NCBI RefSeq assembly: GCF_022024115.1 | Contig: NZ_CP091792.1 | Span: 2,294,001-2,358,000, forward strand | DNA from: Prevotella communis | GTDB lineage: Bacteria > Bacteroidota > Bacteroidia > Bacteroidales > Bacteroidaceae | DNA length: 64,000 nucleotides | Reading direction: 5' to 3' | Part shown: positions 27,939-63,667 of the stretch, piece after piece | How the letters are laid out: each line of letters opens with the position of its first letter | Position numbering within the stretch: position 1 is the first letter of the stretch | Position numbers and translations under genes: made by a program | Notes under the pieces: generated by a model | Told to the model about the DNA's origin: nothing | Seen by the model: the letters and a program-made list of their open reading frames with translations, nothing else | The model's database searches: none

Positions 27939-27969
27939 TTGTAGATATCATTTTTTATGAGTACCTTTG
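27939..27969 (+). promoter_or_regulatory. Strong promoter followed by a structured leader and a truncated frame
   Basis: TTG (27939-27941) and TACCTTTG (27962-27969) are separated by exactly 20 nt, matching the Bacteroidetes consensus. The start point should be near 27976. The predicted leader contains the hairpin AATTTTCCT/AGGAAAATT (28014-28039) before an ATG at 28121. Between the esterase terminator and the LUD gene nothing else coding is seen. Confidence 0.8.
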
Positions 27970-52210: not shown

Positions 52211-52633
52211 TCAGATGCCGTTTCTGCACAGTTCCCATCCTCTTAGCATAGCAAACCAGTCGAAGCCCTCCGTGCCGCACTCCTGGATGCCCATGGCCGC
52301 GCCGAGGGCTATCCACCTGCCGGGCTTGTCGCTGGGTATGCCCAGCGGCTCGTCGGGCCCTATGCCCGTGAGTCTCGACACATTCTCTATATACGCCCGC
52401 GTATTATTCTCGTTGGGCGGTGCCCAGCGCGTGACTATCGCACGGATGGTATAGAGCCGATACGTGTGATAGTAGGTGCGGGTGAGCAGCACGAAGGCTG
52501 CCCGCCAGCCATACGCCATTGTTTCAAACTGACAGAACTGAGCATCTGTCTGCAAGGCCTTCATGCCCTGCCATTTATCCTTTGAACGTCTTATATTCAG
52601 CGGATTATTATTACGAATTCCTCTTGCAATCAT
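52211..52633 (-). CDS. Structural protein P5-like (phage/mobile-element lysis-type) protein
   Basis: This 140-aa protein opens with MIARGIRNNNPLNIRRSKDKW and contains FETMAYGWRAAFVLL. This is the pattern of P5-like proteins of tailless phages and Bacteroidetes mobile regions, which have a lysozyme-like fold. It may cut peptidoglycan, but I see no confirmed catalytic dyad. It is the last gene of the leftward island and overlaps the preceding hypothetical gene by 23 nt. In related clusters an amidase gene often takes this position. Confidence 0.75.
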   Translation of the reverse strand: MIARGIRNNNPLNIRRSKDKWQGMKALQTDAQFCQFETMAYGWRAAFVLLTRTYYHTYRLYTIRAIVTRWAPPNENNTRAYIENVSRLTGIGPDEPLGIPSDKPGRWIALGAAMGIQECGTEGFDWFAMLRGWELCRNGI

Positions 52634-53015
52634 TTCGTTTCTTCTTGTTTACGTTTATTGGTGTACTATTTGGAAAGGCTTCACTATAAGCCTTATCGAG
52701 CGCTTTCAGATTGACTTTCCGATAGCTGACGCCCGTTTTTACAGCCACGATAGCACGCAACAGTTCACGGTGCTTGCGCGGATAAAGACTCGGTATCGGC
52801 AGCTCGTTCCAGCCTTTCTGAGGCTCGTCATCGACCACAGCCATGTGACACACCTCCCAGATAAAATCGTCGGTGGCTTCGCTGCCAAACCATGCCTTCA
52901 ACACATTGCGGATGCAATACCGCTTACACTGACCTCCGAGGAGGCGCCTCGTGCGCTCCAGCCTGCGCCAGAGCAACACAAAGCATTCCTGCGAATTGTT
53001 TAATTCTAAATTCAT
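52611..53015 (-). CDS. Hypothetical protein
   Basis: This 134-aa basic protein starts MNLELNNSQECFVLLWRRLE and ends in a Lys/Arg-rich tail. The open frame continues 29 codons upstream, but ATG 53015 is preferred because it follows a typical AATTTAGAATTATG leader and avoids the repeat at 53045-53078. The SYRKVNLKALDKAY segment might be DNA- or protein-binding. I recognise no family. It sits between the primase-like gene and the P5-like gene. Confidence 0.6.
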   Translation of the reverse strand: MNLELNNSQECFVLLWRRLERTRRLLGGQCKRYCIRNVLKAWFGSEATDDFIWEVCHMAVVDDEPQKGWNELPIPSLYPRKHRELLRAIVAVKTGVSYRKVNLKALDKAYSEAFPNSTPINVNKKKRNDCKRNS

Positions 53016-53044
53016 AATTCTAAATTTCAATATATCATAAAATC

Positions 53045-53078
53045 GATTTTGACCAAATGACCTTGACCAAATGACCAC
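53045..53078 (-). repeat. 34-bp repeat, inverted copy of the left array at 62419-62452
   Basis: The 34 bases run from GATTTTGACC to AATGACCAC and contain two 14-bp units of TTGACCAAATGACC type. They are identical to the reverse complement of 62419-62452, 9.4 kb away. The repeat lies immediately after the stop of the primase-like gene and before the next start. Confidence 0.95.
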
Positions 53079-53079
53079 G

Positions 53080-55491
53080 TTACAACTTACGATAATTACC
53101 ATCCTCTTCCAGTATCACGAGCTTTTGTTTGCGCCAATTCTTCAGCATCTGCCGCACGGTGTTATGGTTCACGTTGGCACCCTTCACCGCCACCGATTGC
53201 TGCATAGCCTGCTCGAAAGAGAACTGGATGTCCAGTCGCTCAAAGATGGAGTCGTTCTTGCCGCGCTTGGTGCGCTCACCGTTCATATTGCCGGCGTAGT
53301 CGCGACTCTGGAAGGCGTTCTCTATGCGGTCGCGGAAGAAGTAGAGCGCGTTCTCCAACAGCGAGTCGGCTATCACGTCGTAGACCTCCAGCATCGTGGG
53401 CGTCTGCGCCTTCAGCAGCATCTCCTTCCATAGTCCCGGCTGCTGCTTCAACTGTGCCTCTGCTCTGGTCAGCCCGTGCTTCTGAATAAGGCTTTCGCAC
53501 ACCTTGCATAGCATCAGACAGCACGTCATTCTTTGGGCTGTGACGCAGACGCGGAAGCGCTGACGGGCACGGGTGCGGTCGTCGTTCTTCATCGTCTCCA
53601 GTCGGATGCGCTCCACCCATTCACGGCCCTTGGCCTCCAGCTTGGGCAGCACCACCTCGCCATACATCAGCGGCAACAGATGGGCTATCTGCTGGATGCG
53701 GTCGCGCTGGCGGTCGGTCAGCACAGGCGGCTTGTCCTGCAGCGGTGCAAAGGTATTGTCGGGCGTACGGGCCACGGCGATACGGCTCTGGAAACCGTCG
53801 GTGTAGTTGTTCACCACGCGATACAGCGCATCGGGCGTGCCGCACATACACACGTTCCACAGCAGTTTGTCGATATGCACGTTCACCGCGTCAGCACTCC
53901 TTGCCTCACGCTCGTACTTCGTACCGTCGTAGCTCTGGCGCAGCATCACGGAGAAGTCGCTCATCGTGGATTTCCATTTCTGCGCCACGGTATCGGCCTC
54001 GGGTGTAAACGAGAAGGCGTGCTTGCCCTCCGTGTTGGCCAGACGCTCGGCCAGGTTGGCCACCGTATTGTTCAGCGTCAGACAGCGCACGGGCAGTTTC
54101 GGTTCCTCGGGCTGCTCCTTCTTATTCTTCGCCGCCCGCTTCTTGGCACGCCACTCATCCTCCTGCACCTGGTACATCTTGTCGAGCGCCTGCACCTCAC
54201 TCATCCACGCCTCCACCACGGGGTCGATGCCACCCTTGCCGCTGGCAAAGTCGCCGGCGATATAGGCAATCAGGTTCAGCCCTCGCTTCTGCCCGTGCAC
54301 ATCCAGCTGCACGCCCGTGGCCAGCGTACCGATACAGGGGCAGATGGCGGTGATAACAGGCATGGAGAGCTGAGGACCGACGGCATCGATGGAGTCGCGG
54401 ATGCCCATCGGCATTCGCTTAAGGGAAGAGTGAAGAGTGAAAAGTGAAGAATTTGCTACCGCATCATCATTGTCATCTTCATCCGCTAGGCCCTCCTCCC
54501 CTTTGGGGAGGTCGTGAGAGGTTAAGGCATTCAGTGTGTTGCGCAGCCTCTGCGGAAATCCGTTGTACTCCGAACTCAGTGCACTCTTAATCTTCGCCCG
54601 TTTCTCCTCTTCGGGGAACCCGTTGTAGCAGGGAATCACCTGATCCAGCCAGTCAGCATTCTTGCCACAGATATGCCTCAGGTCGCAGGCCAACTGATAG
54701 GTCAGCGTGTCGCGGTCGCCAATGGTCGGTTCAAACCCGTGGTTGTTCAGCTCCCAGTACTTCTTCAGTATCTGCTCAAACGGTATGCCGTGGTAGTCGC
54801 TAGGGAATTTATTGTCTAAGGAGTCTAGGAGTTTAGGAGTTTTTTCATCAGCACCTTGTCCTGATACTCCTTGATTTCTATTATTTGTAGTTCCATCAAA
54901 TATCTCCTGCTTCACACTCTCGCTCACATTCTCCTCAAACAGTCGCTTATCAGGACCATAGAGCACATAGCTTCTCGGTACAGCAAACGACCCGCGAGCC
55001 AGGTCTTTTGTCTTGGAGTCATCGGTTACGCCAAGCTTAGCAGCAAGCCACTGTTTCGACTGGTCTATGCGCTCCGTTGGCGACAGATGGCCGAACTGAC
55101 TTGGAATGATATACACTATGCGCAAGCCCTTGCCCGAACAACTTACGTGTACCAATACTATCAGATGCTCCAGCTCCAGCATAATAAGCGTCTGCACCAG
55201 TCGTTTCCACACCTCGCGCGGGTCTTCGCCGTTCAGCTCATCCAGATCCAGATAGGCCATATTCGTAGGCACAGCACTCTTGGCGTGTCGGTGCCCGTCG
55301 GTATAATGGGCCATAAACATGAGCAGCGGCAACCCCTGCTTCAGCGTCTTTGCCTCGTCACTATCGTGGTCTACGGTGGTCAGTTTCTGGCACACCTCTG
55401 CCACAACTGGCGAGTCCAGAATCTCGTTCAGTTTATCCTGAGGGCAAGCCAGAACCTGCGCTGACTTGCCATTCTTACAGTATGAAATCAT
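53080..55491 (-). CDS. VirE_N (BT4734-like) / DUF3987 primase-helicase-like protein
   Basis: This 803-aa protein has a BT4734-like N-terminal domain (about 35-190, with AYLDLDELNGED and VSCSGKGLRIVYII), a middle helical region (about 230-330), a DUF3987 ATPase-like domain (about 355-700) whose Walker-A-like loop reads GDFASGKGG near residue 411 (Gly where Ser/Thr is usual), and a C-terminal winged helix ending in VRQMLKNWRKQKLV. Related proteins occur in Bacteroidetes mobile regions and resemble replication primase-helicases. Two linkers (about 207-231 and 327-358) are encoded by short-period repeats. Confidence 0.85.
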   Translation of the reverse strand: MISYCKNGKSAQVLACPQDKLNEILDSPVVAEVCQKLTTVDHDSDEAKTLKQGLPLLMFMAHYTDGHRHAKSAVPTNMAYLDLDELNGEDPREVWKRLVQTLIMLELEHLIVLVHVSCSGKGLRIVYIIPSQFGHLSPTERIDQSKQWLAAKLGVTDDSKTKDLARGSFAVPRSYVLYGPDKRLFEENVSESVKQEIFDGTTNNRNQGVSGQGADEKTPKLLDSLDNKFPSDYHGIPFEQILKKYWELNNHGFEPTIGDRDTLTYQLACDLRHICGKNADWLDQVIPCYNGFPEEEKRAKIKSALSSEYNGFPQRLRNTLNALTSHDLPKGEEGLADEDDNDDAVANSSLFTLHSSLKRMPMGIRDSIDAVGPQLSMPVITAICPCIGTLATGVQLDVHGQKRGLNLIAYIAGDFASGKGGIDPVVEAWMSEVQALDKMYQVQEDEWRAKKRAAKNKKEQPEEPKLPVRCLTLNNTVANLAERLANTEGKHAFSFTPEADTVAQKWKSTMSDFSVMLRQSYDGTKYEREARSADAVNVHIDKLLWNVCMCGTPDALYRVVNNYTDGFQSRIAVARTPDNTFAPLQDKPPVLTDRQRDRIQQIAHLLPLMYGEVVLPKLEAKGREWVERIRLETMKNDDRTRARQRFRVCVTAQRMTCCLMLCKVCESLIQKHGLTRAEAQLKQQPGLWKEMLLKAQTPTMLEVYDVIADSLLENALYFFRDRIENAFQSRDYAGNMNGERTKRGKNDSIFERLDIQFSFEQAMQQSVAVKGANVNHNTVRQMLKNWRKQKLVILEEDGNYRKL
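54420..54515. repeat. Dispersed repeats embedded in-frame in the primase-like gene
   Basis: The minus strand encodes NSSLFTLHSSL from 7-bp-period TTCACTC units (about 54423-54453) and HDLPKGEEG from a C/G-rich hairpin CCTCCCC/GGGGAGG (about 54491-54511). Both elements also occur in non-coding DNA of this window (30752-30778; 21108-21127). They fill the linker before the DUF3987 domain. Confidence 0.7.
54820..54848. repeat. 8-bp-period repeat inside the primase-like gene
   Basis: On the minus strand three units ACTCCTAA, ACTCCTAG, ACTCCTTA encode TPKLLDSLD. Three units of 8 bp keep the frame. They fall in a linker between the N-terminal and middle domains. Confidence 0.7.
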
Positions 55492-55877
55492 CGTCTATGT
55501 CCCCTTCCATTTATCAGTTCGCGAATCACTTTCTGCGCTACCGCGCTGGCCTGACGCACCAGTTTCTCGGGCAACTGCCCCAGCTGATCCTCGTCGAGCG
55601 AGAAGTAGAAATAATATCGCTTATCCTTACCGTGCGACAGCGAACAGTTGTCTTCGCGGAATATAGGTTTGTTTTTGTGTCGTTTAGGTTTCTCAGTCAT
55701 ATACACGTTGCCGTCGCGCATCCCTTGTACGTGGAAATCGCCATGAAAGGCTTCTGCTGCCACATCCTCGCAGCACTCAAAATCAAGTGTACGCAGTCCT
55801 GATTCTTGCTTGCCGAAGGTCATCAGACCCTCGACCATTACCTGTTGTCCTAAAATAGGTGTTCTTCTAGTTTTCAT
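55488..55877 (-). CDS. Hypothetical protein of the primase module
   Basis: This 129-aa protein starts MKTRRTPILGQQVMVEG, has a central basic stretch (TEKPKRHKNKP) and ends in a helix rich in Ala/Val. Its stop overlaps the primase-like start by 4 nt (ATGA), so the two are translationally coupled and likely functional partners. It could be a DNA-binding accessory factor, but no family is recognised. Confidence 0.65.
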   Translation of the reverse strand: MKTRRTPILGQQVMVEGLMTFGKQESGLRTLDFECCEDVAAEAFHGDFHVQGMRDGNVYMTEKPKRHKNKPIFREDNCSLSHGKDKRYYFYFSLDEDQLGQLPEKLVRQASAVAQKVIRELINGRGHRR

Positions 55878-55965
55878 TTTACTTAAGTTTTGCGAGCAGA
55901 AGTTTCAGAAATCCGATGGCCATCTTCACGTGAAGACTTCTTTCGCCTCAACTCAAGTTAGTTTT

Positions 55966-56661
55966 TTAGTGAAACAATGATTTGATGAATTCCTTGCCCT
56001 GCGGTGTCCACACCATGTATGGGCGCTGCTTCTTGTCACCATTCAGGGCGTAGTAGTGAAACATGCGTTCTTCCGTATAGCCGCATTCAGTATATTGGGC
56101 CTTGAGCTTGTAGCGTGAACCGTTCCAATACTGTATGCCCTTGTCCACCAAGAAGTGGTTCAGCGCGTTCGCCGTTGTTTCCAGGCTCTCGGCCACCTCT
56201 GATGCAGTGAAACAGTCGTCAGCAGGCAGGTTGGCACGCGATATGGTGCGAGCTATAATCTTGTTGGCCTCCTCAACCATCTCGCCCTCAGTCAGTGCCT
56301 CGCCAGTGCGCAGGTTCCTTGTTGGCAGATAACCGCCCGTCTGACGAATCTGCGGCAGCACCTCAGCCGTTACCCAGCGCTTAAATTCCTTAGCCTGCGG
56401 CAGCTTGGAGCTGAGTACCAGGGAGTAGAGACCAGACTCGTTGATGATAATCGTTTTCTGAGTTCCACCAAGGGGGCCCTGAATCAGGGCGTCCTTTTTG
56501 TCCTCATCATCAACATGAGCCGCTAAAGCATTACGACTTTTAGCATATCCCAGCGCCTGTGCCACATCCTTACCCACAAAGAAAGTCTCACCTTTCTCAT
56601 TTGTCATTGTTCGAACCTCGCCGAACATATCATTCTTAAAAATCTGAATATTTGTTGTCAT
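55966..56661 (-). CDS. BRO-family antirepressor-like protein
   Basis: This 231-aa protein has a BRO-N domain at about residues 1-115 (MTTNIQIFKNDMFGEVRTM, FFVGKDVAQALGYAKSRNAL, SGLYSLVLSSKLPQAKEFKR split) and a KilA-C/ANT-like C-terminal domain (about 145-231, TASEVAESLETTANALNHFL then YMVWTPQGKEFIKSLF). Such proteins are phage antirepressors and lysogeny switches. In this island it probably regulates the neighbouring leftward genes, but no repressor is evident. Confidence 0.88.
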   Translation of the reverse strand: MTTNIQIFKNDMFGEVRTMTNEKGETFFVGKDVAQALGYAKSRNALAAHVDDEDKKDALIQGPLGGTQKTIIINESGLYSLVLSSKLPQAKEFKRWVTAEVLPQIRQTGGYLPTRNLRTGEALTEGEMVEEANKIIARTISRANLPADDCFTASEVAESLETTANALNHFLVDKGIQYWNGSRYKLKAQYTECGYTEERMFHYYALNGDKKQRPYMVWTPQGKEFIKSLFH

Positions 56662-56684
56662 TGTTGTTTTTACCTTTTTATTTT

Positions 56685-56966
56685 TTACCTATTTACCTTT
56701 ATCAGGTCTGTCGCCAGTATTTCCTGGAACGTCTGTCCCTGATATTCATGTGTAGAGAATCGGAGGGTGGCGATGACGATGTCACCCTCGTAGAACCTGC
56801 ACGCCGCCAGATTACCCAGCATGGCGCACACATATTCATTTTCAAACTTTGAGCCCAGCTCCTTCAGCACGATGTTGCACTTCTGGATAACGCCCGACTC
56901 CTGTTTACTTGACTGTACGCTGAAGGCCTCGCCCTGGCGTACCACTTTCAAAATCTTTGTTTCCAT
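56685..56966 (-). CDS. Small OB-fold-like protein (DUF3127-like)
   Basis: This 93-aa protein has the alternating strand pattern of an OB fold (KVVRQGEAFSVQSSKQESG, CNIVLKELG, EGDIVIATLRFSTHEYQGQ). It resembles DUF3127-type proteins associated with single-stranded-DNA handling, which would fit beside a primase-like gene. The assignment is structural inference. It lies downstream of a terminator-promoter element and a long repeat-bearing leader. Confidence 0.65.
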   Translation of the reverse strand: METKILKVVRQGEAFSVQSSKQESGVIQKCNIVLKELGSKFENEYVCAMLGNLAACRFYEGDIVIATLRFSTHEYQGQTFQEILATDLIKVNR

Positions 56967-57051
56967 TTTGTTGTTATTAAAAATCTGTTATTATAAATTT
57001 GTTAATGTGTTCTTGCGTCCTTTCAGTAGCAAGCGAGCAAAGCTCGAGCGA

Positions 57052-57094
57052 CTGTGTCTTTAAAAACCCATTACTCTGTCTTTAAAACCCATTA
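57052..57094 (+). repeat. Two tandem copies of a 21-22-bp repeat
   Basis: CTGTGTCTTTAAAAACCCATTA and CTCTGTCTTTAAAACCCATTA (quoted as 57052-57073 and 57074-57094) lie in the leader of the OB-fold gene. They differ at two positions and by one base of length. Confidence 0.85.
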
Positions 57095-57140
57095 CTGTGT
57101 ATCAACATGTCAAAGATCGCCTTGTCGTTGTTCGACGATG

Positions 57141-57148
57141 CAAAATTA
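57141..57148 (-). promoter_or_regulatory. -7 box of the OB-fold gene, downstream of a terminator
   Basis: The minus strand reads TAATTTTG, directly after the T-run of the terminator at 57161-57187. It gives a leader of about 165 nt for the OB-fold gene. The -33 position reads TTTC, a weak match. Confidence 0.6.
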
Positions 57149-57160
57149 GGCACAAAAAAA

Positions 57161-57187
57161 AGGTGCATGAAACAACGTCATGCACCT
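57161..57187 (-). terminator. Terminator of the hypothetical/coiled-coil gene pair
   Basis: AGGTGCATGA/TCATGCACCT is a perfect 10-bp stem with a 7-nt loop. On the minus strand it is followed by eight T. Confidence 0.92.
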
Positions 57188-57230
57188 CTGTAGGTTATTC
57201 TGTAGGTTATGTAGGTTATTCTGTAGGTAT
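57186..57230 (-). repeat. Repeats of CTGTAGGTTAT next to a gene end
   Basis: Four copies of GTAGGTTAT-type units spaced 10-12 bp apart lie between the terminator hairpin and the stop of the gene at 57230. Confidence 0.75.
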
Positions 57231-57691
57231 TACGCTGTGCGCCTGTCCTCAACGGCATTTTTATACGCCTCCATCAGTTGCAGCACCCGCTGCTTGGCAC
57301 CCTGCTGCGCCCATTTGTCCACATGCAGGCGCATATACGGATTATTTCTGAACGTATTCGACAGCAACCCCTCCTGACAATGGAAGTCGCGCTCAAACTG
57401 CCTCATATTATTGGCATAGCCGTAGCAGTCGCGACACGTGCAGAAGATGACCGCCAGCGCACTGTCGCCCCAGAAGTATTGACGCACACTGTCTACACAT
57501 GTCGCCAGCGTCGCTACATCGGGCTGCTCATCATCCTGAGGCGCGTCTGGCGTCTTTGGCTCCGGCACGTGCTGGTTGACCGTCGCCCCGGGCATGGCAA
57601 ACACACAGCCGCGGATATTGCCGTTGAATACCTGACAGTTTGAGCCAGGCTCAAAATTGTTCACAACATTTTTCTGATTGTCTTTTTCCAT
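57230..57691 (-). CDS. Hypothetical protein with a QVFN motif at its N-terminus
   Basis: This 153-aa protein carries an N-terminal motif (NNFEPGSNCQVFNGNIRG, residues 11-28, then CVFAMPG) that also appears in the preceding gene product as NHFEAGSSSQVFNDRVSG. The middle is a Pro/Asp-rich linker and the C-terminal half is helical and Cys-rich (VIFCTCRDCYG). Its start overlaps the coiled-coil gene by 31 nt. The shared motif suggests that the two proteins use the same assembly module. I recognise no named family. Confidence 0.65.
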   Translation of the reverse strand: MEKDNQKNVVNNFEPGSNCQVFNGNIRGCVFAMPGATVNQHVPEPKTPDAPQDDEQPDVATLATCVDSVRQYFWGDSALAVIFCTCRDCYGYANNMRQFERDFHCQEGLLSNTFRNNPYMRLHVDKWAQQGAKQRVLQLMEAYKNAVEDRRTA

Positions 57692-58167
57692 TTTTTCTTG
57701 TTCTTTTTGATATCGTTACGTTTCTTGTTATTCTTATTCCTGTCGCTCTGGACTTTGCCAAACTTACCGCTCACCCGGTCGTTGAACACCTGCGAACTGC
57801 TGCCCGCCTCGAAGTGGTTGTGAATCTCCATAGGCTTCGCACGCACCTCCGTCTCCAGGTGCTGTCGCTCCGTCTCCAGATGCTGGTTTCTCGCCTCCAG
57901 CAGTTGCCGTTGCAGGTCGTCTATCTCCTGTTGGTGCTGACGGCGCAGATCTTCTATCTCCTGATCCCGCTGCTCCAGCTGCTCGTTCAGGTCGTCCACC
58001 TCCGCCTGCAGCCGCTCGTTCTCGGCCTGGATATCGCCAATCACCTCCGTGGCCCGTGCCAGTCCGTCCAGCATTTTCATCTGTTCCATCATTCTTTCGC
58101 GCTCCCTGTCGAGCGCACGCCTGGCGCCATCGCTCCAATCTCTCAGTTCGTCAAAATTTACGTCCAT
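57661..58167 (-). CDS. Coiled-coil protein with a QVFN motif
   Basis: This 168-aa protein has an uninterrupted charged coiled-coil at about 20-110 (IEDLRRQHQQEIDDLQRQLL within it), then the motif NHFEAGSSSQVFNDRVSG at residues 117-134 and a Lys-rich C-terminal tail (about 140-168) that could bind nucleic acid. The same motif lies at the N-terminus of the next gene product. Structural or scaffold roles are possible. It overlaps a 29-codon membrane-peptide frame by 17 nt. Confidence 0.7.
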   Translation of the reverse strand: MDVNFDELRDWSDGARRALDRERERMMEQMKMLDGLARATEVIGDIQAENERLQAEVDDLNEQLEQRDQEIEDLRRQHQQEIDDLQRQLLEARNQHLETERQHLETEVRAKPMEIHNHFEAGSSSQVFNDRVSGKFGKVQSDRNKNNKKRNDIKKNKKKWKKTIRKML

Positions 58168-58240
58168 TCTCTTCTAAGAATTTATAGTCCGTGAATATTA
58201 CCACTACCGCAATGATATAAATCCAAAAAATCGCATCCAT
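58151..58240 (-). CDS. Small membrane peptide (29 aa)
   Basis: The frame MDAIFWIYIIAVVVIF (and 13 more residues, ending ENGRKF) is one predicted membrane helix followed by a short charged tail. It starts 41 nt after a minus-strand TATATTTG promoter box (near 58281-58288), with an AACATTAAGATT leader like those of other genes here, and overlaps the start of the coiled-coil gene by 17 nt, consistent with coupled translation. It is too short for confident assignment. Confidence 0.5.
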   Translation of the reverse strand: MDAIFWIYIIAVVVIFTDYKFLEENGRKF

Positions 58241-58294
58241 AATCTTAATGTTTTTAGTTCGACATATATTGATTTCGGATTGCAAATATACAAC

Positions 58295-58325
58295 AGAGGG
58301 TGTCCCAGAAACCGGGGACACCCTC
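58295..58325 (-). terminator. Strong hairpin after the WYL gene
   Basis: GAGGGTGTCCC pairs with GGGACACCCTC (11 bp) with a loop of seven to eight bases. The T-run on the minus strand is poor, and a TATATTTG box follows immediately, so it could be a terminator at a promoter boundary. Confidence 0.6.
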
Positions 58326-58332
58326 TTGAGAT

Positions 58333-59214
58333 TTAATATCTATTAAGCATTTCTTTTATGATTTTACACATTTTAAGGCGAAGTTCAGGCGGGTCGACCA
58401 CTTCCACGCCATGGTCGTATTTCAGCAGTTCGCCTAGGAAGTCGGGCGTGGGCCTGACGTCGAGCGTAAAGTCGGTATAGGCCTCGGTCGTGTCTGCCAC
58501 CCGCTGCGAGTGGTGAAGTGGCAGCGTGCGCAGGTAGTTGGCCGTCTTGCCGTAGGCACGCACCACCACGTGCGTCAGCGGCGTTGTCTCGTCGGTCAGC
58601 ACACCGTAGTATTCGCCGAAGTACTGCTCTGACGAGAAGTCGGCAGGCATCACGAAGGTCTCGTCGGTCATCTCTACCGACAGCATGCGGTCCAGCGAGT
58701 AGGTAGCCATGTGGTGGCCCGTAAACACCAGCAGATACCAGCGACGTCCCCACAGCTTCAGCACGTAGGGCTCCACCGTCTTCTCGCTCACCTCACAGCC
58801 GAAGCGCTGGTAGCGCATGTGCAGGCGGCGGTTCAGTCTGATGGCCTTGATTATCATCGGCAGGAACTGCTCGCCCTCGGGCACGCTCTCCAGAATGATG
58901 CGGTCCTTCACCGTCGAACTGTCGGCCAGTGCCACGTTCACCGTCATCGTCGACAGCAGCCAACTCTCAATCGAATGGTCGGCCAGCTCGCCCGGGTTCG
59001 AGAAATAATACTGGTACTTCTCGTCGCACTCCATCATCAGGCCAAACAACTCGAAGATTTTGTCACGATAGCGGTTGAACGACGAGCGATAGAGCGTGTC
59101 GCCCATCTTGTCGGCCGTCCATTTCTCCTGCAGCGCCTTCAGCGTGAGGCGCTCGTTCTGCCTGATGGTCGTTATCAGCCACAGGCACTGTCGTATTGTG
59201 TTGCTTTGATACAT
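58333..59214 (-). CDS. WYL-domain transcriptional regulator
   Basis: This 293-aa protein has an N-terminal winged-helix-like region (about 1-80), a WYL domain (about 130-210, with the WRWYLLVF core as GRRWYLLVFTGHH) and a C-terminal WCX-type region (about 225-293). WYL regulators sense small ligands or nucleic acids and are common next to phage-defence and mobile-element genes. Three 10-bp-spaced ACTAG repeats lie just upstream of the ATG and may be its own operator. Confidence 0.88.
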   Translation of the reverse strand: MYQSNTIRQCLWLITTIRQNERLTLKALQEKWTADKMGDTLYRSSFNRYRDKIFELFGLMMECDEKYQYYFSNPGELADHSIESWLLSTMTVNVALADSSTVKDRIILESVPEGEQFLPMIIKAIRLNRRLHMRYQRFGCEVSEKTVEPYVLKLWGRRWYLLVFTGHHMATYSLDRMLSVEMTDETFVMPADFSSEQYFGEYYGVLTDETTPLTHVVVRAYGKTANYLRTLPLHHSQRVADTTEAYTDFTLDVRPTPDFLGELLKYDHGVEVVDPPELRLKMCKIIKEMLNRY

Positions 59215-59224
59215 AGTATTTGAT

Positions 59225-59251
59225 TCTAGTTGAGACTAGTCAAAACTAGTT
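59225..59251 (-). promoter_or_regulatory. Candidate operator: three ACTAG repeats at 10-bp spacing
   Basis: On the minus strand the leader reads ACTAGTTTTG, ACTAGTCTCA, ACTAGAATC, one turn of helix apart, 11 nt before the WYL start. The spacing suits side-by-side binding of a regulator. There is no direct evidence for binding. Confidence 0.4.
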
Positions 59252-59255
59252 TCCT

Positions 59256-59969
59256 TTATCCTCTTCTCTTTTCCCTTTCCTGCCGCAGCAGCACCTCCAG
59301 ATGGCGCTTCTCATTGAGAAGCTGCTCAATGCGCTGCTCCAGGATAGGCACCTGCTGACGCAGGCTCTTGTTCTCTTCCCTCAGCCGCTGCAGGTCTTCG
59401 TCTATGCCCTTTCTGTAGCCCGTGCGGGCCGCATACATACGCTCCTTGATGCCACCCTGAGTGACAAACTGCTTATCAAGGCCACTCAGATAGGTCTTCA
59501 TCATCTTGTCTGTCATGTGCAGCAGGGTCAGCGCCACGTTGCATTGCTCCTCGTCGCCCCACCGTTCAAAATAGGGTTCATAGTCGCTCACTTTATTATG
59601 CTGCCTGCAAAACTTCAGCAGCGTGTCGTAGCGGGGATTACCACTATCCCACACGGTAAGATGACGCGTGCAGAGGTAGTCCTCATAGTCTGCGCGCAGT
59701 TCCTTTAGCGACGAGCGTGCCACATTCAGCAGTTTCAGCTGCAGCTCTGTGGATGTCATGCCATCGGCAAATCCCTCTATGATATTCTGCTTTCCCGAGC
59801 GTGCCGCCTGTATCATCTGATCTACAGTGCGGTCAGCCTTAGCAGGCAGGAAGCGCTTGGCAAAATGATATGTCAGCGCATATAGCACCTCTGTCTTCTG
59901 ATAAAAGAAGAGGTCCTGGTATTGCACCTCGTTCTGCAACACCTTCGGAATTTCCTTATCCTTGTCCAT
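59256..59969 (-). CDS. Four-helix-bundle suffix-domain protein
   Basis: This 237-aa protein has a four-helix-bundle S23/IVS-like domain (about 10-190, beginning YQDLFFYQKTEVLYALTYHF and with ARSSLKELRADYEDYL) followed by a C-terminal coiled-coil (about 195-237, RLREENKSLRQQVPILEQRI). Such proteins are frequent near mobile genes in Bacteroidetes. Their function is unknown. It begins after the terminator-promoter element at 60009-60051 and is followed 41 nt later by the WYL gene. Confidence 0.82.
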   Translation of the reverse strand: MDKDKEIPKVLQNEVQYQDLFFYQKTEVLYALTYHFAKRFLPAKADRTVDQMIQAARSGKQNIIEGFADGMTSTELQLKLLNVARSSLKELRADYEDYLCTRHLTVWDSGNPRYDTLLKFCRQHNKVSDYEPYFERWGDEEQCNVALTLLHMTDKMMKTYLSGLDKQFVTQGGIKERMYAARTGYRKGIDEDLQRLREENKSLRQQVPILEQRIEQLLNEKRHLEVLLRQEREKRRG

Positions 59970-60008
59970 TTTTACCTTTTTACCTTAATAGAACCAATAA
60001 TTTACCTG

Positions 60009-60056
60009 CAAAGGTACAAAAAAATCCCGCTCTGTTTGTGGATAGAACGGGAAAAA
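60009..60056 (-). promoter_or_regulatory. Terminator-promoter module, copy 1
   Basis: Read leftwards, the hairpin CCCG..CGGG (60026-60051) and its T-run end the SusD-like gene, and TACCTTTG (60009-60016) immediately follows as the -7 box of the four-helix-bundle gene. The sequence is near-identical to 62305-62350. Confidence 0.85.
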
Positions 60057-60082
60057 TATTTATAAAAAAATTGAATCGAATC

Positions 60083-61822
60083 CTAGTATCCGGGATTTTG
60101 TGTGATATTGGGATTTGACATGATATCCACATAAGGAATTGGCATCAGTAACTCATAGTCGAAACAACCCGTAACAGATTGTGCCTGACCTAAACGCTTA
60201 AGAGCAGCCCAGTACCCAAAGTCGGCATAGGTGTATTTCTTCCATTCTGCAGCAACACCCTCTGGGCCTGAAGTGGCACCTCCATCACCTAATGAAACGT
60301 TAGTCTCCAATACTAATCCATCCTTACTGCCTGTAATTTCATACAGATACAACTGATGATGGGTGATAGTATAAACAGGGATATATGGTCCCGAGCTAGC
60401 TTGAGCCATTGCCCAGATAACAGGTCTTTCCATAGTTTGAAGAACAGACCTCGTCTGATAGATATACGAATCCTTGTCTATCTGGCTCAACGTATTCTGA
60501 GCCGCGCTTTTGCTCCCCAAAGTCAGTTCAATCTCTGCTTTTAGCATCTTGCCGGCATCCTTGTTGAAATAAAGTTTTCCTTCATTCTGATAATTACTTT
60601 CAGGGAGATTGCCCAAAGCATTGCAGATATCGCTGTATGCCAGTTGAAAGACTTCACTTTGGCTGCGTTGCGGTATGTTGCTGGCTTGTTCTGAAGACAT
60701 GATTGCCTGAGTGATAACGGGGACGTTACCCCACAGCATGCCAAGGTTATAATAGATAAAGGCCCTGATGGCTCTCACTTCTGCTAAAAATTGCGTAACC
60801 TGCTGATTTAGTTGAAGATCACCTCGTTCTGCCATCTCTAGAGTGTAGTTGATTCTGTTTATGGTGCTATAAGCTGCCTGCCATGTATTGCTGACTACAG
60901 GACTCTGGGCAGATATCTGGTGTACTGTGTTAGGGGTTGATCTGGTTGCCTCCAATTGCAGTTGTCCCTCAACAAATGATGCGCAACTGGCATAAATAGG
61001 AGCACGGAGCGCAACAATATTTGACTGATAATCCTCCGTAATAGCATCCATGCTTTGATACACCACTTTGGTTAACACGACAGTTGCCTTGAGCTCGTCA
61101 TCAAGTGTGCCCTCCATGCGCACGCTTATGGTACTATCTTTCTGCGAGAGCAAGGTGTAGACATACATCGGCTCGCTCGTCTGCTTATGATAGGTCTCTA
61201 TTCTGCCGTTTTTGATGAGCCATGCGTCCTCCATAGAGTGGAAACCTACGCACGAACCGTCTTTCTTAAATGAGATTTCCTTATCCTTTTGGATATATGA
61301 GTTTCTGCCCTTTTCGATAGTAAAGTCCTTGACCTTCCATGAGAAGTCTCCTGCAATCAAATCATCAGTAAACGTCAACACAGGCTGGACGACACCGCTA
61401 TCATCATCACTCTCACGGTCGAAATAATACTTAAAGGTGACGCCATTGTTTGCAGCACCCTCCCATATCATTCTTTTCCCGCTGAAGGTCACGGTAATAA
61501 CAAAAGTGCCTCCGTTGTTGCTTTTGACCGTAACGGTGTTGCCATTGACAGAATAGGTGCCAGTATAGCCAAAGGATTGGGCGGTAGATGTATAAGTACC
61601 GCCTGCGTTGATTGTCACCTCTTTACCCACCATCAGGCCATCATAAGAATGACCTTGCTGCGTGTCGGTACTCTTAACGCACATCCATGTACCGATAGCT
61701 TTACTGATGAGTTCGCCATCAGAAATGACCTCAGTCTTCTCATCGTCGTCACCGCATGATACCATCGTAGGTATCATTAATGTCGCGAGCAAAAGAACGC
61801 ACAAAAGTTTGAAATGTTTCAT
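60083..61822 (-). CDS. Lipoprotein: two lipocalin-like domains fused to a SusD/RagB-type domain
   Basis: This 579-aa protein has a lipobox ending at Cys23 (PTMVSCGDD). Two lipocalin-like beta-barrel repeats follow (about 35-135, IGTWMCVKS...; about 140-245, GDFSWKVKDF...). The C-terminal 310 residues are SusD-like (EVRAIRAFIYYNLGMLWGN, ending LLMPIPYVDIMSNPNITQNPGY split, the typical SusD C-terminus). SusD proteins bind glycans on the cell surface with a SusC porin. No susC is adjacent, and the SusD part lacks the normal N-terminus. It may be a fused orphan surface-binding protein. Confidence 0.85.
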   Translation of the reverse strand: MKHFKLLCVLLLATLMIPTMVSCGDDDEKTEVISDGELISKAIGTWMCVKSTDTQQGHSYDGLMVGKEVTINAGGTYTSTAQSFGYTGTYSVNGNTVTVKSNNGGTFVITVTFSGKRMIWEGAANNGVTFKYYFDRESDDDSGVVQPVLTFTDDLIAGDFSWKVKDFTIEKGRNSYIQKDKEISFKKDGSCVGFHSMEDAWLIKNGRIETYHKQTSEPMYVYTLLSQKDSTISVRMEGTLDDELKATVVLTKVVYQSMDAITEDYQSNIVALRAPIYASCASFVEGQLQLEATRSTPNTVHQISAQSPVVSNTWQAAYSTINRINYTLEMAERGDLQLNQQVTQFLAEVRAIRAFIYYNLGMLWGNVPVITQAIMSSEQASNIPQRSQSEVFQLAYSDICNALGNLPESNYQNEGKLYFNKDAGKMLKAEIELTLGSKSAAQNTLSQIDKDSYIYQTRSVLQTMERPVIWAMAQASSGPYIPVYTITHHQLYLYEITGSKDGLVLETNVSLGDGGATSGPEGVAAEWKKYTYADFGYWAALKRLGQAQSVTGCFDYELLMPIPYVDIMSNPNITQNPGY

Positions 61823-61833
61823 ATCTTTCTCTG

Positions 61834-62274
61834 TTAAAAATCAGTATTACACCATTCGTAAGCATTACTTAGCCAAATACCAACTTGCTTGCTTCGGTCT
61901 AATTGAAGATATAATTTATTGGGCACACCTTCTTGGGTAATCTTCTGAATCGTACCTTTATACTTCGTAGGTATTCCATATGTAACAAAGGTGACATCAA
62001 TGTTTGTACCCGATAGAACATAGGACATTGTATCTTGGTTGCAGACCCAAGAATCTACAACTTGTTGTGTAATCAAATGTCCGTTTCGGAACTTAATATA
62101 TAGATTCTCATATTTAAATGATGGGACAGATTCCAATTCAGCTTTAGTAATATCGCAATAAACTGGGGTGTTGTCTATCCTATCATCGTCACCGCACCCA
62201 CTGATTAATGACATAAGCATCATTGGCAATGCCAAAAGGAGGAACCTCTTCATAATAAGTTGTAGATTTTTCAT
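61834..62274 (-). CDS. Hypothetical lipoprotein
   Basis: This 146-aa lipoprotein has a signal peptide and lipobox ending in SLISGCGDDD. The mature part is a small beta-rich domain (TKYKGTIQKITQEGVPN) that I cannot assign. An internal ATG (MKRFLLL, at 62253) is also plausible, but 62274 lies at a reasonable distance from the -7 box at 62305-62312. It is 11 nt upstream of the SusD-like gene and shares its GCGDDD/SCGDDD anchor style, so both are likely co-expressed on the surface. Confidence 0.7.
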   Translation of the reverse strand: MKNLQLIMKRFLLLALPMMLMSLISGCGDDDRIDNTPVYCDITKAELESVPSFKYENLYIKFRNGHLITQQVVDSWVCNQDTMSYVLSGTNIDVTFVTYGIPTKYKGTIQKITQEGVPNKLYLQLDRSKQVGIWLSNAYEWCNTDF

Positions 62275-62304
62275 ATTATCGGTATCAAATACTTATATTT
62301 TTTG

Positions 62305-62350
62305 CAAAGGTACAAAAAATCCCGCTCTATTTGTGGTAGAACGGGAAAAA
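62305..62350 (-). promoter_or_regulatory. Terminator-promoter module, copy 2
   Basis: Read leftwards, the hairpin CCCG..CGGG (62321-62345) with its T-run precedes TACCTTTG (62305-62312), the -7 box of the lipoprotein gene. No leftward gene exists upstream for the hairpin to terminate, so this copy looks like a duplicate of 60009-60056. Confidence 0.85.
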
Positions 62351-62418
62351 AATTTAAAAAATGTTTTTGCAGTTATGAATCATAGGACGCCTAGTGGCTT
62401 TTTATCATTTTACAATCT

Positions 62419-62452
62419 GTGGTCATTTGGTCAAGGTCATTTGGTCAAAATC
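62419..62452 (+). repeat. Left array, locus 2 (34-bp copy also at 53045-53078)
   Basis: Units GGTCATTT and GGTCAA alternate. The array lies opposite 62537-62567 across an AT-rich palindrome, in the 500-base stretch between the lipoprotein gene and the HU-like gene, which has no coding content. Confidence 0.92.
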
Positions 62453-62476
62453 AATTTCGGGAACGCGGTCATTGCT

Positions 62477-62511
62477 CACTATATATAAATATAAATATTT
62501 ATATTATAGTG
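62477..62511. repeat. AT-rich near-palindrome, locus 2
   Basis: CACTATATATAAATAT and ATATTTATATTATAGTG mirror each other with one extra T. Only four of 35 bases are G or C. Its centre (62494) is the midpoint between the two arrays. Confidence 0.9.
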
Positions 62512-62536
62512 GCGGATTTTGACAGTCAGTTTTCGA

Positions 62537-62567
62537 TTTTGACAAATGACCAAATGACCAAATGACC
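62537..62567 (-). repeat. Right array, locus 2
   Basis: TTTTGAC is followed by three tandem AAATGACC units at 8-bp period, the reverse-complement character of the left array. Confidence 0.92.
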
Positions 62568-62633
62568 GCGCAAGACACAAAAATAGACAAAATAATCTTG
62601 GATATGTATTCGTAGACCGCAATGGAAATGTAG

Positions 62634-62641
62634 TACCTTTG
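62634..62641 (+). promoter_or_regulatory. -7 box of the HU-like gene
   Basis: TACCTTTG lies 140 bp right of the palindrome centre of locus 2. The -33 position reads TTCG, a weak match. It starts a leader of about 125 nt. Confidence 0.7.
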
Positions 62642-62655
62642 CATTGTCAAAAATG

Positions 62656-62721
62656 AGCAACACGCCGTATCGCTGACAGCAAAACGCCGGCTCGCTGAAA
62701 GCAACACGCCGTTTCTCTCAA
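62656..62721 (+). repeat. Three tandem 22-bp repeats in the HU-like gene leader
   Basis: The units (62656-62677, 62678-62699, 62700-62721) begin AGCAACACGCCG, AGCAAAACGCCG and AGCAACACGCCG. They fall inside the predicted untranslated leader. Confidence 0.9.
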
Positions 62722-62774
62722 AACGACACAAATAAATCTCAAATCTCAAACCTTAAACCTCAAAATTAAAAACT

Positions 62775-63326
62775 ATGGGAACAATTGAAATTAAGAAGGT
62801 GGAACGCAAGGTGACTGTGGGCAAGAAGGGCGAGCAGCGCCAGCAGGTGAAGAAGACCTACGGTAAGATTATCTATCGCGGCACGCTGCGACTCACCGAC
62901 ATGGCCGAGCACATCATGAAGCACGGCAGTATCTATACCGAGGACGTGGTCATCGGTGTGATCACCAAGCTGAAGAGCTGCATGCAGGAGATGCTGGCCG
63001 ACGGCTACAAGGTGAAGCTCGACGGCATCGGAACCCTCTACCCTGTCCTCACCTCCAAGGGCGTCAGCGACGCGAAGGACTTCAGCGCATCCGAGAATGT
63101 CACCCGCTTGGGCATCGCCTTCCTGGCCGACCAGAGCAAGAAGTCTGCCTACAAGGCTTCCGCCATGCGTCAGGGCGCTACGCTGAGCACCCAGCTCTAC
63201 AGCGAACTGACGGGTGAGGAGACGGAGAACGGAAACACGGAGTCAGGGAATAACGGAGGCACGGAGAACGGCGGCGGCAGTTCTAGCTCCGAATCCGGCA
63301 ACGGCGGCGGTCCCGTCAATCCTTAA
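62775..63326 (+). CDS. HU-like DNA-binding protein with a Gly/Ser/Asn-rich tail
   Basis: This 183-aa protein belongs to the HU-related group typical of Bacteroidetes: an N-terminal basic segment (KKVERKVTVGKKGEQRQQVK), the HU-like core (DMAEHIMKHGSIYTEDVVIG, then VKLDGIGTLYPVL) and a disordered tail (about 149-183) of Gly, Asn, Ser and Glu. It should bind DNA without strong sequence preference. It is preceded by the repeat locus at 62419-62567 and followed by the smalltalk gene, a pairing seen in related genomes. Confidence 0.9.
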   Translation: MGTIEIKKVERKVTVGKKGEQRQQVKKTYGKIIYRGTLRLTDMAEHIMKHGSIYTEDVVIGVITKLKSCMQEMLADGYKVKLDGIGTLYPVLTSKGVSDAKDFSASENVTRLGIAFLADQSKKSAYKASAMRQGATLSTQLYSELTGEETENGNTESGNNGGTENGGGSSSSESGNGGGPVNP

Positions 63327-63348
63327 GCCTCGCACAGAGGTGATAATC

Positions 63349-63508
63349 TCACACAGAAATCACGGAAATCACAGAAATGAGAATCGCCAGCGATTCTTTA
63401 TCCGCTGAATCCGATTAATCCGTGGTCGAAAGATTTCCGTGATTTCTATTTGCTTTGCAAATACTGGAGGCGCAGCCAATTTCTGTGATTTCTGTGATTT
63501 CTGTGTGA
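63349..63508. repeat. Inverted pair of 30-bp, 9-bp-period arrays
   Basis: The left arm at 63349-63378 (units AGAAATCAC, GGAAATCAC, AGAAAT) and the right arm at 63479-63508 (ATTTCTGTG three times) are complementary at 29 of 30 positions. The 100 bases between them contain the small hairpins GAATCGC/GCGATTC and ATTTGC/GCAAAT. No gene is seen here. Confidence 0.92.
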
Positions 63509-63565
63509 ACTTAAAATAATCAGCGTGAAATATTAATCAATCAGTGTGAAACCTAACCATTTAAA

Positions 63566-63667
63566 ATGATGAAGAACAAGACATTTTGGAAATTCGCAAT
63601 CCAGACAGCCATTAGTGTGCTGTCGGCCATCGCAACGGCACTGGGAGTGACCAGCTGCATGGCATGA
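63566..63667 (+). CDS. Smalltalk-family peptide (33 aa)
   Basis: The frame MMKNKTFWKFAIQTAISVLS then AIATALGVTSCMA has a basic start, one hydrophobic helix and a C-terminal SCM-type end, matching the short Bacteroidetes family named smalltalk protein, which is commonly found right after HU-like genes. Its function is unknown; the Cys and helix suggest a small membrane lipopeptide. The pattern and the neighbour support the call. Confidence 0.75.
   Translation: MMKNKTFWKFAIQTAISVLSAIATALGVTSCMA

Follow-up and report, generated by a model that had tools for sequence, protein, structure and literature searches.

Organization of the Locus

The window analyzed here is a stretch of 64,000 nucleotides from the genome of Prevotella communis (G000:C1:2294001-2358000; genome size 3.57 Mb). 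L and G numbers below are labels of loci and genomes. Towards the right end of the window, an HU-like gene is preceded by two inverted repeat arrays that enclose an AT-rich palindrome, an arrangement termed here the array-palindrome-array element (APA). A single array of the same repeat lies behind a gene for a predicted primase-helicase (Rep), to the left of the APA. The features of this island, and of a second APA elsewhere in the window, are as follows.

52211–52633, minus strand: 140-aa gene downstream of Rep; island-copy homology stops near its stop codon; no family match
53041–53079, minus strand: single array directly 3′ of the Rep stop codon, its repeat identical in kind to both APA arms; tandem core 53049–53077
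53080–55491, minus strand: Rep, 803 aa; BT4734-like_N (AEP-type primase family), DUF3987 (predicted helicase) and C-terminal winged helix, from Pfam and a structure model
55966–56661, minus strand: BRO-N/ANT phage-antirepressor-like gene upstream of Rep, by domain match
57230–59969, minus strand: variable cargo, comprising a 153-aa protein, a WYL regulator and a four-helix suffix protein
62420–62457, plus strand: APA left arm, tandem GGTCATTTGGTCAA in two copies (62421–62448), the repeat reading toward the palindrome
62477–62511, no strand: APA centre, an AT-rich imperfect palindrome centred on 62494
62533–62570, minus strand: APA right arm, the left-arm repeat inverted; tandem core 62543–62567 with CAAATGAC units
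62634–62641, plus strand: TACCTTTG, presumed −7-like box of the HU-like gene
62775–63326, plus strand: HU-like gene, 183 aa, Pfam HU-HIG (E = 2.1e-17), with TIGR01201 just below cut-off
63566–63667, plus strand: smalltalk protein, 33 aa, DUF6486/NF033879; island-copy homology stops at about its stop codon
27743–27905, no strand: locus 1, the second APA of the window, with CTTACAAT units

The arms of the HU-proximal APA are inverted copies of one repeat of 13–14 nt with 100% complementarity, and the midpoint between the arrays differs from the palindrome centre by 0.5 bp. The palindrome itself is imperfect, as 18 of its 35 positions pair without gaps, and its closure needs one indel, as read from the sequence. 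The original prediction of symmetric arrays around an AT palindrome at 62420–62570 describes a real structure. Its proviso that such symmetry might be common by chance was addressed by 400 dinucleotide shuffles of 62275–62774, none of which gave even an AT palindrome of the required size, the real flank score being 45. Inverted arrays were found at neither of the two AT-rich palindromes in 300 kb of the same genome (15 spaced 20-kb stretches), and at both AT-rich palindromes of the window when the same detection was applied.

At locus 1, the arrays are of another type. Exact matches of CTTACAATCTTACA in the own genome number 13, all of them inside three APAs of the locus 1 type and none behind a Rep, and for the CTTACAAT APAs of this genome no Rep carrying the exact CTTACAAT-type repeat was found.

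The HU-Like Gene and Its Promoter

The TACCTTTG sequence, by its motif a presumed Bacteroidetes-type −7-like box, lies 140 bp to the right of the palindrome centre, and at locus 1 the corresponding spacing is about 137 bp (box at 27962). A promoter spacing of about 140 bp, proposed as a shared property, thus stands for these two loci but fails as a general rule: among 23 HU-linked cases (one counted twice), the distance from the APA centre to the first TAnnTTTG box, which may not be the promoter, ranges from 95 to 323 bp, and a conserved promoter distance was rejected. That distance is 137.5–140.5 bp in 7 of the 23; the loci with a spacing of about 137–141 bp are those of two repeat types of G000 together with L109. 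An RNA element of the HU transcript was also rejected, since the presumed promoter is downstream of the APA.

The architecture had further been linked to HU-like genes as such, and here the comparison of their upstream regions spoke against the prediction. Symmetric arrays were found at 3 of 30 HU-HIG loci chosen regardless of Rep (the best match in each of 30 genomes out of 80, contig ends truncating some of the loci), and all three are Rep islands. Moreover, the HU-like protein of L005 is 96% identical to that of the window, yet the arrays of the two loci are unrelated.

A Repeat Shared with the Primase-Helicase Gene

The array behind Rep matches the left arm of the APA with 67.1 bits over 62419–62457, and the right arm with 42.8 bits on the minus strand. 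Across the 3.57-Mb genome, TGACCAAATGACC has 29 matches (reversed control, 0), all accounted for by six APAs and by sites behind three DUF3987 genes. These three genes are near-identical; the repeat stands directly after the stop codon in two of them, one being the Rep gene of the window (53080–55491), and some 50 bp past the stop in the third (L016). In three more DUF3987 genes, the 3′ end carries the repeat found in the APA of the same island (L018 with L007, L020 with the island of L008, and L021 with L005). Of the three genome matches of GTGACATCGTGACAT, a single APA arm holds two, and the Rep 3′ end of that island holds the third. In matched regions, the Rep 3′ array and the APA are about 4–16 kb apart. 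The link between Rep and the arrays of its island is strongly supported.

The Rep protein of the window shares 98% identity with a Prevotella communis protein. According to the available text of PMC5862659, the BT4734-like primase domain belongs to an AEP family; DUF3987 is named there as well as in gene tables of PMC10434189. The C-terminal part of Rep was modelled as a winged helix, with pLDDT of 91–94 there. Fold searches with this model returned no Foldseek match at E ≤ 0.001, the top VIA rows being cullin winged-helix domains, and a profile of the Rep alignment compared with PDB sequences gave a best E of 0.047, to a designed protein. The AF2 model of the whole protein was poor (pLDDT 54.2), so the helicase is predicted from its family. 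The likely binder of the APA arrays is the predicted winged-helix end of the island’s primase-helicase, a protein that the original prediction had not linked to them.

Distribution of APAs and Their Match to Rep

In G000, 12 HU paralogs were found with the HU-like protein of the window as query and 20 with the HU-HIG profile. An APA occurs within about 800 bp upstream of 9 of the 12 (L001–L005, L007, L009, L011 and L012), and the HU locus L008 has a tenth APA some 2 kb upstream. The APA repeats of this genome are locus-specific and include GTGACATC, GGTCATTT, TTTGTGAC, TTATGAC, CTTACAAT and GGGACGTT. The earlier claim that the architecture is kept while the repeat changes by locus is supported, which implies locus-specific binders. 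When the window and L051–L064 were scanned together, strong inverted flanks were present at 14 of 15 palindromes with an AT content of at least 0.89. The loci L061 (7005–7197) and L063 (5213–5403), corresponding to the HU loci L009 and L012, have their flanks and palindrome in common, while both arms are wholly different (TTATGAC versus GGGACGTT).

A Rep homolog is present in 34 of 80 genomes, G000 included. Forty Rep regions were drawn on for comparison. Over 789,934 bases, inverted flanks with a score of at least 30 accompanied 34 of 44 palindromes with an AT content of at least 0.85, versus 8 of 170 other palindromes. The symmetry of these elements is approximate, with a median absolute offset of 3 bp (range 0–30, n = 34). 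L061 and L128 are one element and were counted twice in this palindrome survey, in the offsets and in the 23 promoter distances given above. Regions in which all three of Rep, HU and APA were found show divergent Rep and HU genes and, between them and nearer HU, the APA; the exception is L059, where every gene points one way. In the variant island of L059 (4611–7841), an APA (TGACAGTGACAGTTGTGACAG) precedes three genes of the same direction, namely a helicase-like gene, a primase-like gene and HU.

Among 26 Rep/APA pairs, of which three (window, L056 and L057) belong to near-identical island copies and hence are not independent, the Rep 3′ array matches the APA of its own island in 18 (SW score of at least 40), and in one polarity in all 18. 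For 18 of the 26 no other APA outscores the own one, the median score being 54.5 within and 19 between islands, and none of 20,000 permutations of the pairs reached the observed sum of 1324 (maximum 853). The eight pairs without a match are L112, L107, L120, L121, L124, L128, L130 and L131. Two elements whose regions hold no Rep of the matching repeat, the window’s locus 1 APA and the first one of L056, were omitted from the set; L107, with a flank score of 29, was retained. BLAST searches with the Rep array additionally retrieved arms in L101, L108, L111 and L133, and a single arm in L100. When 80 Rep loci were scanned in addition, partly on the earlier contigs (for example, L164, L178, L187 and L193), an inverted pair of the own array was detected in 22 of the 80 and in 21 of the 47 with at least 3 kb upstream, compared with 5–9 of the 80 for queries from foreign loci. 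By eye, 21 of the 22 own-array pairs enclose an AT palindromic core, L184 being the exception. In other genera, the same detector found no APA in 10 regions around PF08800 matches, nor in one such region of G000; the Rep profile recognises Rep in three of those regions only (L314, L315 and L320), whose 3′ ends carry short repeats by eye.

In natural domain swaps, the array accompanies the C-terminal half of Rep. The Reps of the window and L057 share 19% identity in the N-terminal and 98% in the C-terminal part, and they have the same array; those of L055 and L056 share 84% and 28%, respectively, and their arrays differ. Over all Rep pairs, which are not independent, the Spearman correlation of array similarity with Rep identity is 0.18 for the N-terminal, 0.32 for the helicase and 0.35 for the C-terminal part. 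From the swaps, it is the helicase/winged-helix half of Rep that the array seems to track, although the correlation is modest and there are exceptions in both directions: similar C-termini with unlike arrays (L095/L098, 87%, score 11; L054/L115, 80%, score 14) and unlike Reps with similar arrays (L105/L117, 19%, score 53).

Extent of the Island, Cargo and Solo Elements

Sequence common to the window, L056 and L057 extends from near the stop codon of the 140-aa gene (52211) to about that of smalltalk (63667). At the cargo site, the sister island L057 has type III restriction-modification genes (L057 12196–15920) and an AAA ATPase. Pfam and NCBIfam scans of 13 ORFs in 52211–63667 detected no integrase, transposase, terS, capsid or packaging-interference domain, and by eye no att repeat or target-site duplication was seen at the ends of the sister islands. 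Rep relatives are rare in IMG/VR (three contigs at about 25% identity, in a pattern-limited scan) and INPHARED (two records), and none was found in the plasmid set; autonomous replication of the islands is accordingly putative. One 4-kb faecal contig labelled as phage (L277, MT839699.1) encodes a Rep of 66% identity, followed on its 3′ side by an GGTCATTAAGGTCA array of its own, and may represent particle-borne or contaminating DNA.

Some APAs are solo elements. Those upstream of dtd are copies without an adjoining Rep. Among 30 dtd loci, uvrC is beside dtd in 23, and an APA lies between the two genes in 3 of these (G000, G007 and G020); the other 20 sites have none, including two with an 88%-identical dtd (G025 and G018). 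The solo APA L051, between dtd and uvrC, is 91.5% identical to window 62418–62567 over 153 bp, and its limits coincide almost exactly with the arms. The G020 element upstream of dtd (L252) is nested, its GTAACATT arms enclosing a complete GACAGAT APA. A copy of the array also occurs beyond HU in L054, L101, L102 and L131, pointing outward like the copy at the Rep 3′ end. Such solo and nested elements, together with arrays at some outer island ends, the arm difference between L061 and L063 and the confinement of CTTACAATCTTACA to three APAs, leave room for a role in mobility or recombination.

A Putative Replication Origin and Its Alternatives

Considering the pairing of Rep with the arrays, the predicted fold and the analogy with known replicons, we infer that a replication initiator encoded by the island probably acts on the APA as its cis site, and that these loci are satellite-like chromosomal islands with island-private specificity. 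Through its C-terminal winged helix, the BT4734/DUF3987 protein would bind the 7–8-bp repeats, and the two inverted arrays would load Rep on either side of the AT-rich palindrome. The palindrome might then melt or be extruded, after which the helicase would open and the primase would prime the DNA; mirror arrays would load two helicases and so give rise to two forks. The array behind rep may have an accessory function comparable to that of crr in phage P4. With most islands possessing their own pair of repeat and winged helix, an island would not necessarily fire the origin of a relative in the same genome. HU-HIG, smalltalk and the small gene behind Rep may be passengers or helpers of the same island.

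Against this reading count the eight unmatched pairs, the modest correlation with its exceptions, the CTTACAAT APAs for which no Rep with the exact repeat was found, the scanned ORFs of the window island without an integrase or transposase domain, the rarity of Rep relatives in the viral, phage and plasmid sets, and the solo APAs. An alternative is that the APA and the outer arrays are ends for recombination or transposition, with Rep or a host enzyme mobilising the island, or the APA of about 150 bp alone, and the APA resembling a circle junction or a MITE. The arm-to-arm limits of L051, the occupation of 3 of 23 uvrC-dtd sites with one nested pair of two repeat types, and the outward-pointing copies beyond HU all favour it. 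We nevertheless consider it unlikely, given the island ends without visible target-site duplication or att repeat and the scanned ORFs of the window island without a transposase or integrase domain; primase-helicases, moreover, are not known to act as integrases.

The arrays might also be operators through which Rep or a regulator controls the HU-smalltalk promoter without any role in replication; in favour are the solo APAs upstream of dtd and the TAnnTTTG box on the HU side in the 23 HU-linked cases. That the spacing varies threefold, that the third array stands behind a stop codon, away from any known promoter, and that mirrored arrays around a long AT palindrome are more than an operator needs make this account quite improbable. 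Binding by the HU-like protein itself, in autoregulation or as an architectural element, could be supposed from the adjacency of APA and HU in most islands and from the affinity of HU proteins for bent DNA and cruciforms. As a reader of the arrays, HU was rejected on account of the unrelated arrays beside 96%-identical proteins and of the 27 of 30 HU-HIG loci without an APA, and there is very little chance that such binding explains the element. Short tandem repeats of 7–9 bp are common in these intergenic regions, but chance or general repeat noise of Prevotella genomes is a practically negligible explanation in view of the control stretches, the shuffles and the match of the APA to the Rep of the same locus.

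Comparison with Known Replicons

An initiator and origin of the P4, SaPI or pRN1 type is, by analogy, the reading that best fits the anatomy of the islands. In phage P4, crr is a second iteron site located kilobases away, next to the alpha gene, and in SaPI/PICI origins an AT-rich region is bordered on either side by Rep-specific iterons. The likeness to P4 lies in a single primase-helicase with a C-terminal winged helix, predicted here from Pfam domains and a modelled fold, and in one iteron being present both at the candidate ori (62420–62570) and at a distant site beside the initiator gene (53049–53077), with repeat sharing in 18 of 26 pairs. In P4 alpha, the winged helix binds the ori repeats, followed by unwinding and then priming, as the available text of PMC4234260 states. 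P4 differs in having a Toprim-type primase (PMC4234260, available text), whereas the protein here combines AEP-type BT4734 with DUF3987. Further differences are the mirrored pair of arrays around an AT palindrome and the change of repeat from island to island.

SaPI/PICI origins are similar in that iterons flank an AT-rich region, Rep specificity being suggested here by co-variation. They differ from the island of the window, whose scanned ORFs hold no integrase, terS or capsid domain and whose ends by eye show no att repeat, and in which rep and ori are kilobases apart. In pRN1, as in the islands, an AEP primase, a helicase and a winged helix are joined in one protein (ORF904; helicase and winged helix being predicted here), and a stem-loop origin of 100 bp downstream of rep conserves its structure but not its sequence (PMC4234260, available text); in the islands as well, the layout is kept while the sequence varies, and an element lies 3′ of rep. 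The order from winged helix through helicase to primase is stated in that text for P4 alpha and only proposed for pRN1. The pRN1 origin, on the other hand, is without iterons and belongs to a plasmid, whereas the present islands are chromosomal, with the full structure away from rep and a single array only at its 3′ side. Vibrio PLE offers a chromosomal satellite with its own initiator, RepA, and iterons; as far as the available text goes, this is a RepA_N initiator without predicted primase or helicase, and the iteron layout differs (PMC7145576).

A wider proposition, which we put forward tentatively and hold to be somewhat short of an even chance, is that Prevotella harbours a large family of primase-helicase islands with a private-key origin code. 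Most islands would have their own 7–8-bp repeat in mirror arrays, matched to the winged-helix end of Rep; both arms would change together and leave palindrome and flanks as they are, as between L061 and L063, and the origin of about 150 bp might spread or persist alone or nested. If so, a natural, fast-diversifying set of orthogonal initiator-origin pairs would be at hand. Should the islands replicate, they would be a common replicating chromosomal element of rumen and gut Prevotella; our literature search for the element found no description. In any case, one island plan unites the poorly known families of BT4734/DUF3987 proteins, HU-HIG and smalltalk, and its variable cargo includes a restriction system. 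The DNA target of a DUF3987 protein is here predicted from sequence alone, and the many natural Rep/iteron pairs of differing specificity constitute a ready set for decoding winged-helix recognition.

Other Repeats of the Islands

Three additional repeat features were observed. The 5′ leader of the HU-like gene (window 62656–62712) contains three 22-bp direct repeats (AGCAACACGCCGTATCGCTGAA), which also occur in the leaders of L001–L005 and, in diverged form, in L006. Between HU and smalltalk, inverted tandem arrays with a 9-bp unit lie at 63352–63378 (CACAGAAAT) and 63479–63505 (ATTTCTGTG), without an AT palindrome. In L131 (18443–18544), about 100 bp from behind Rep recur behind HU at the opposite end of the island, a terminator-like hairpin being part of the repeated stretch.
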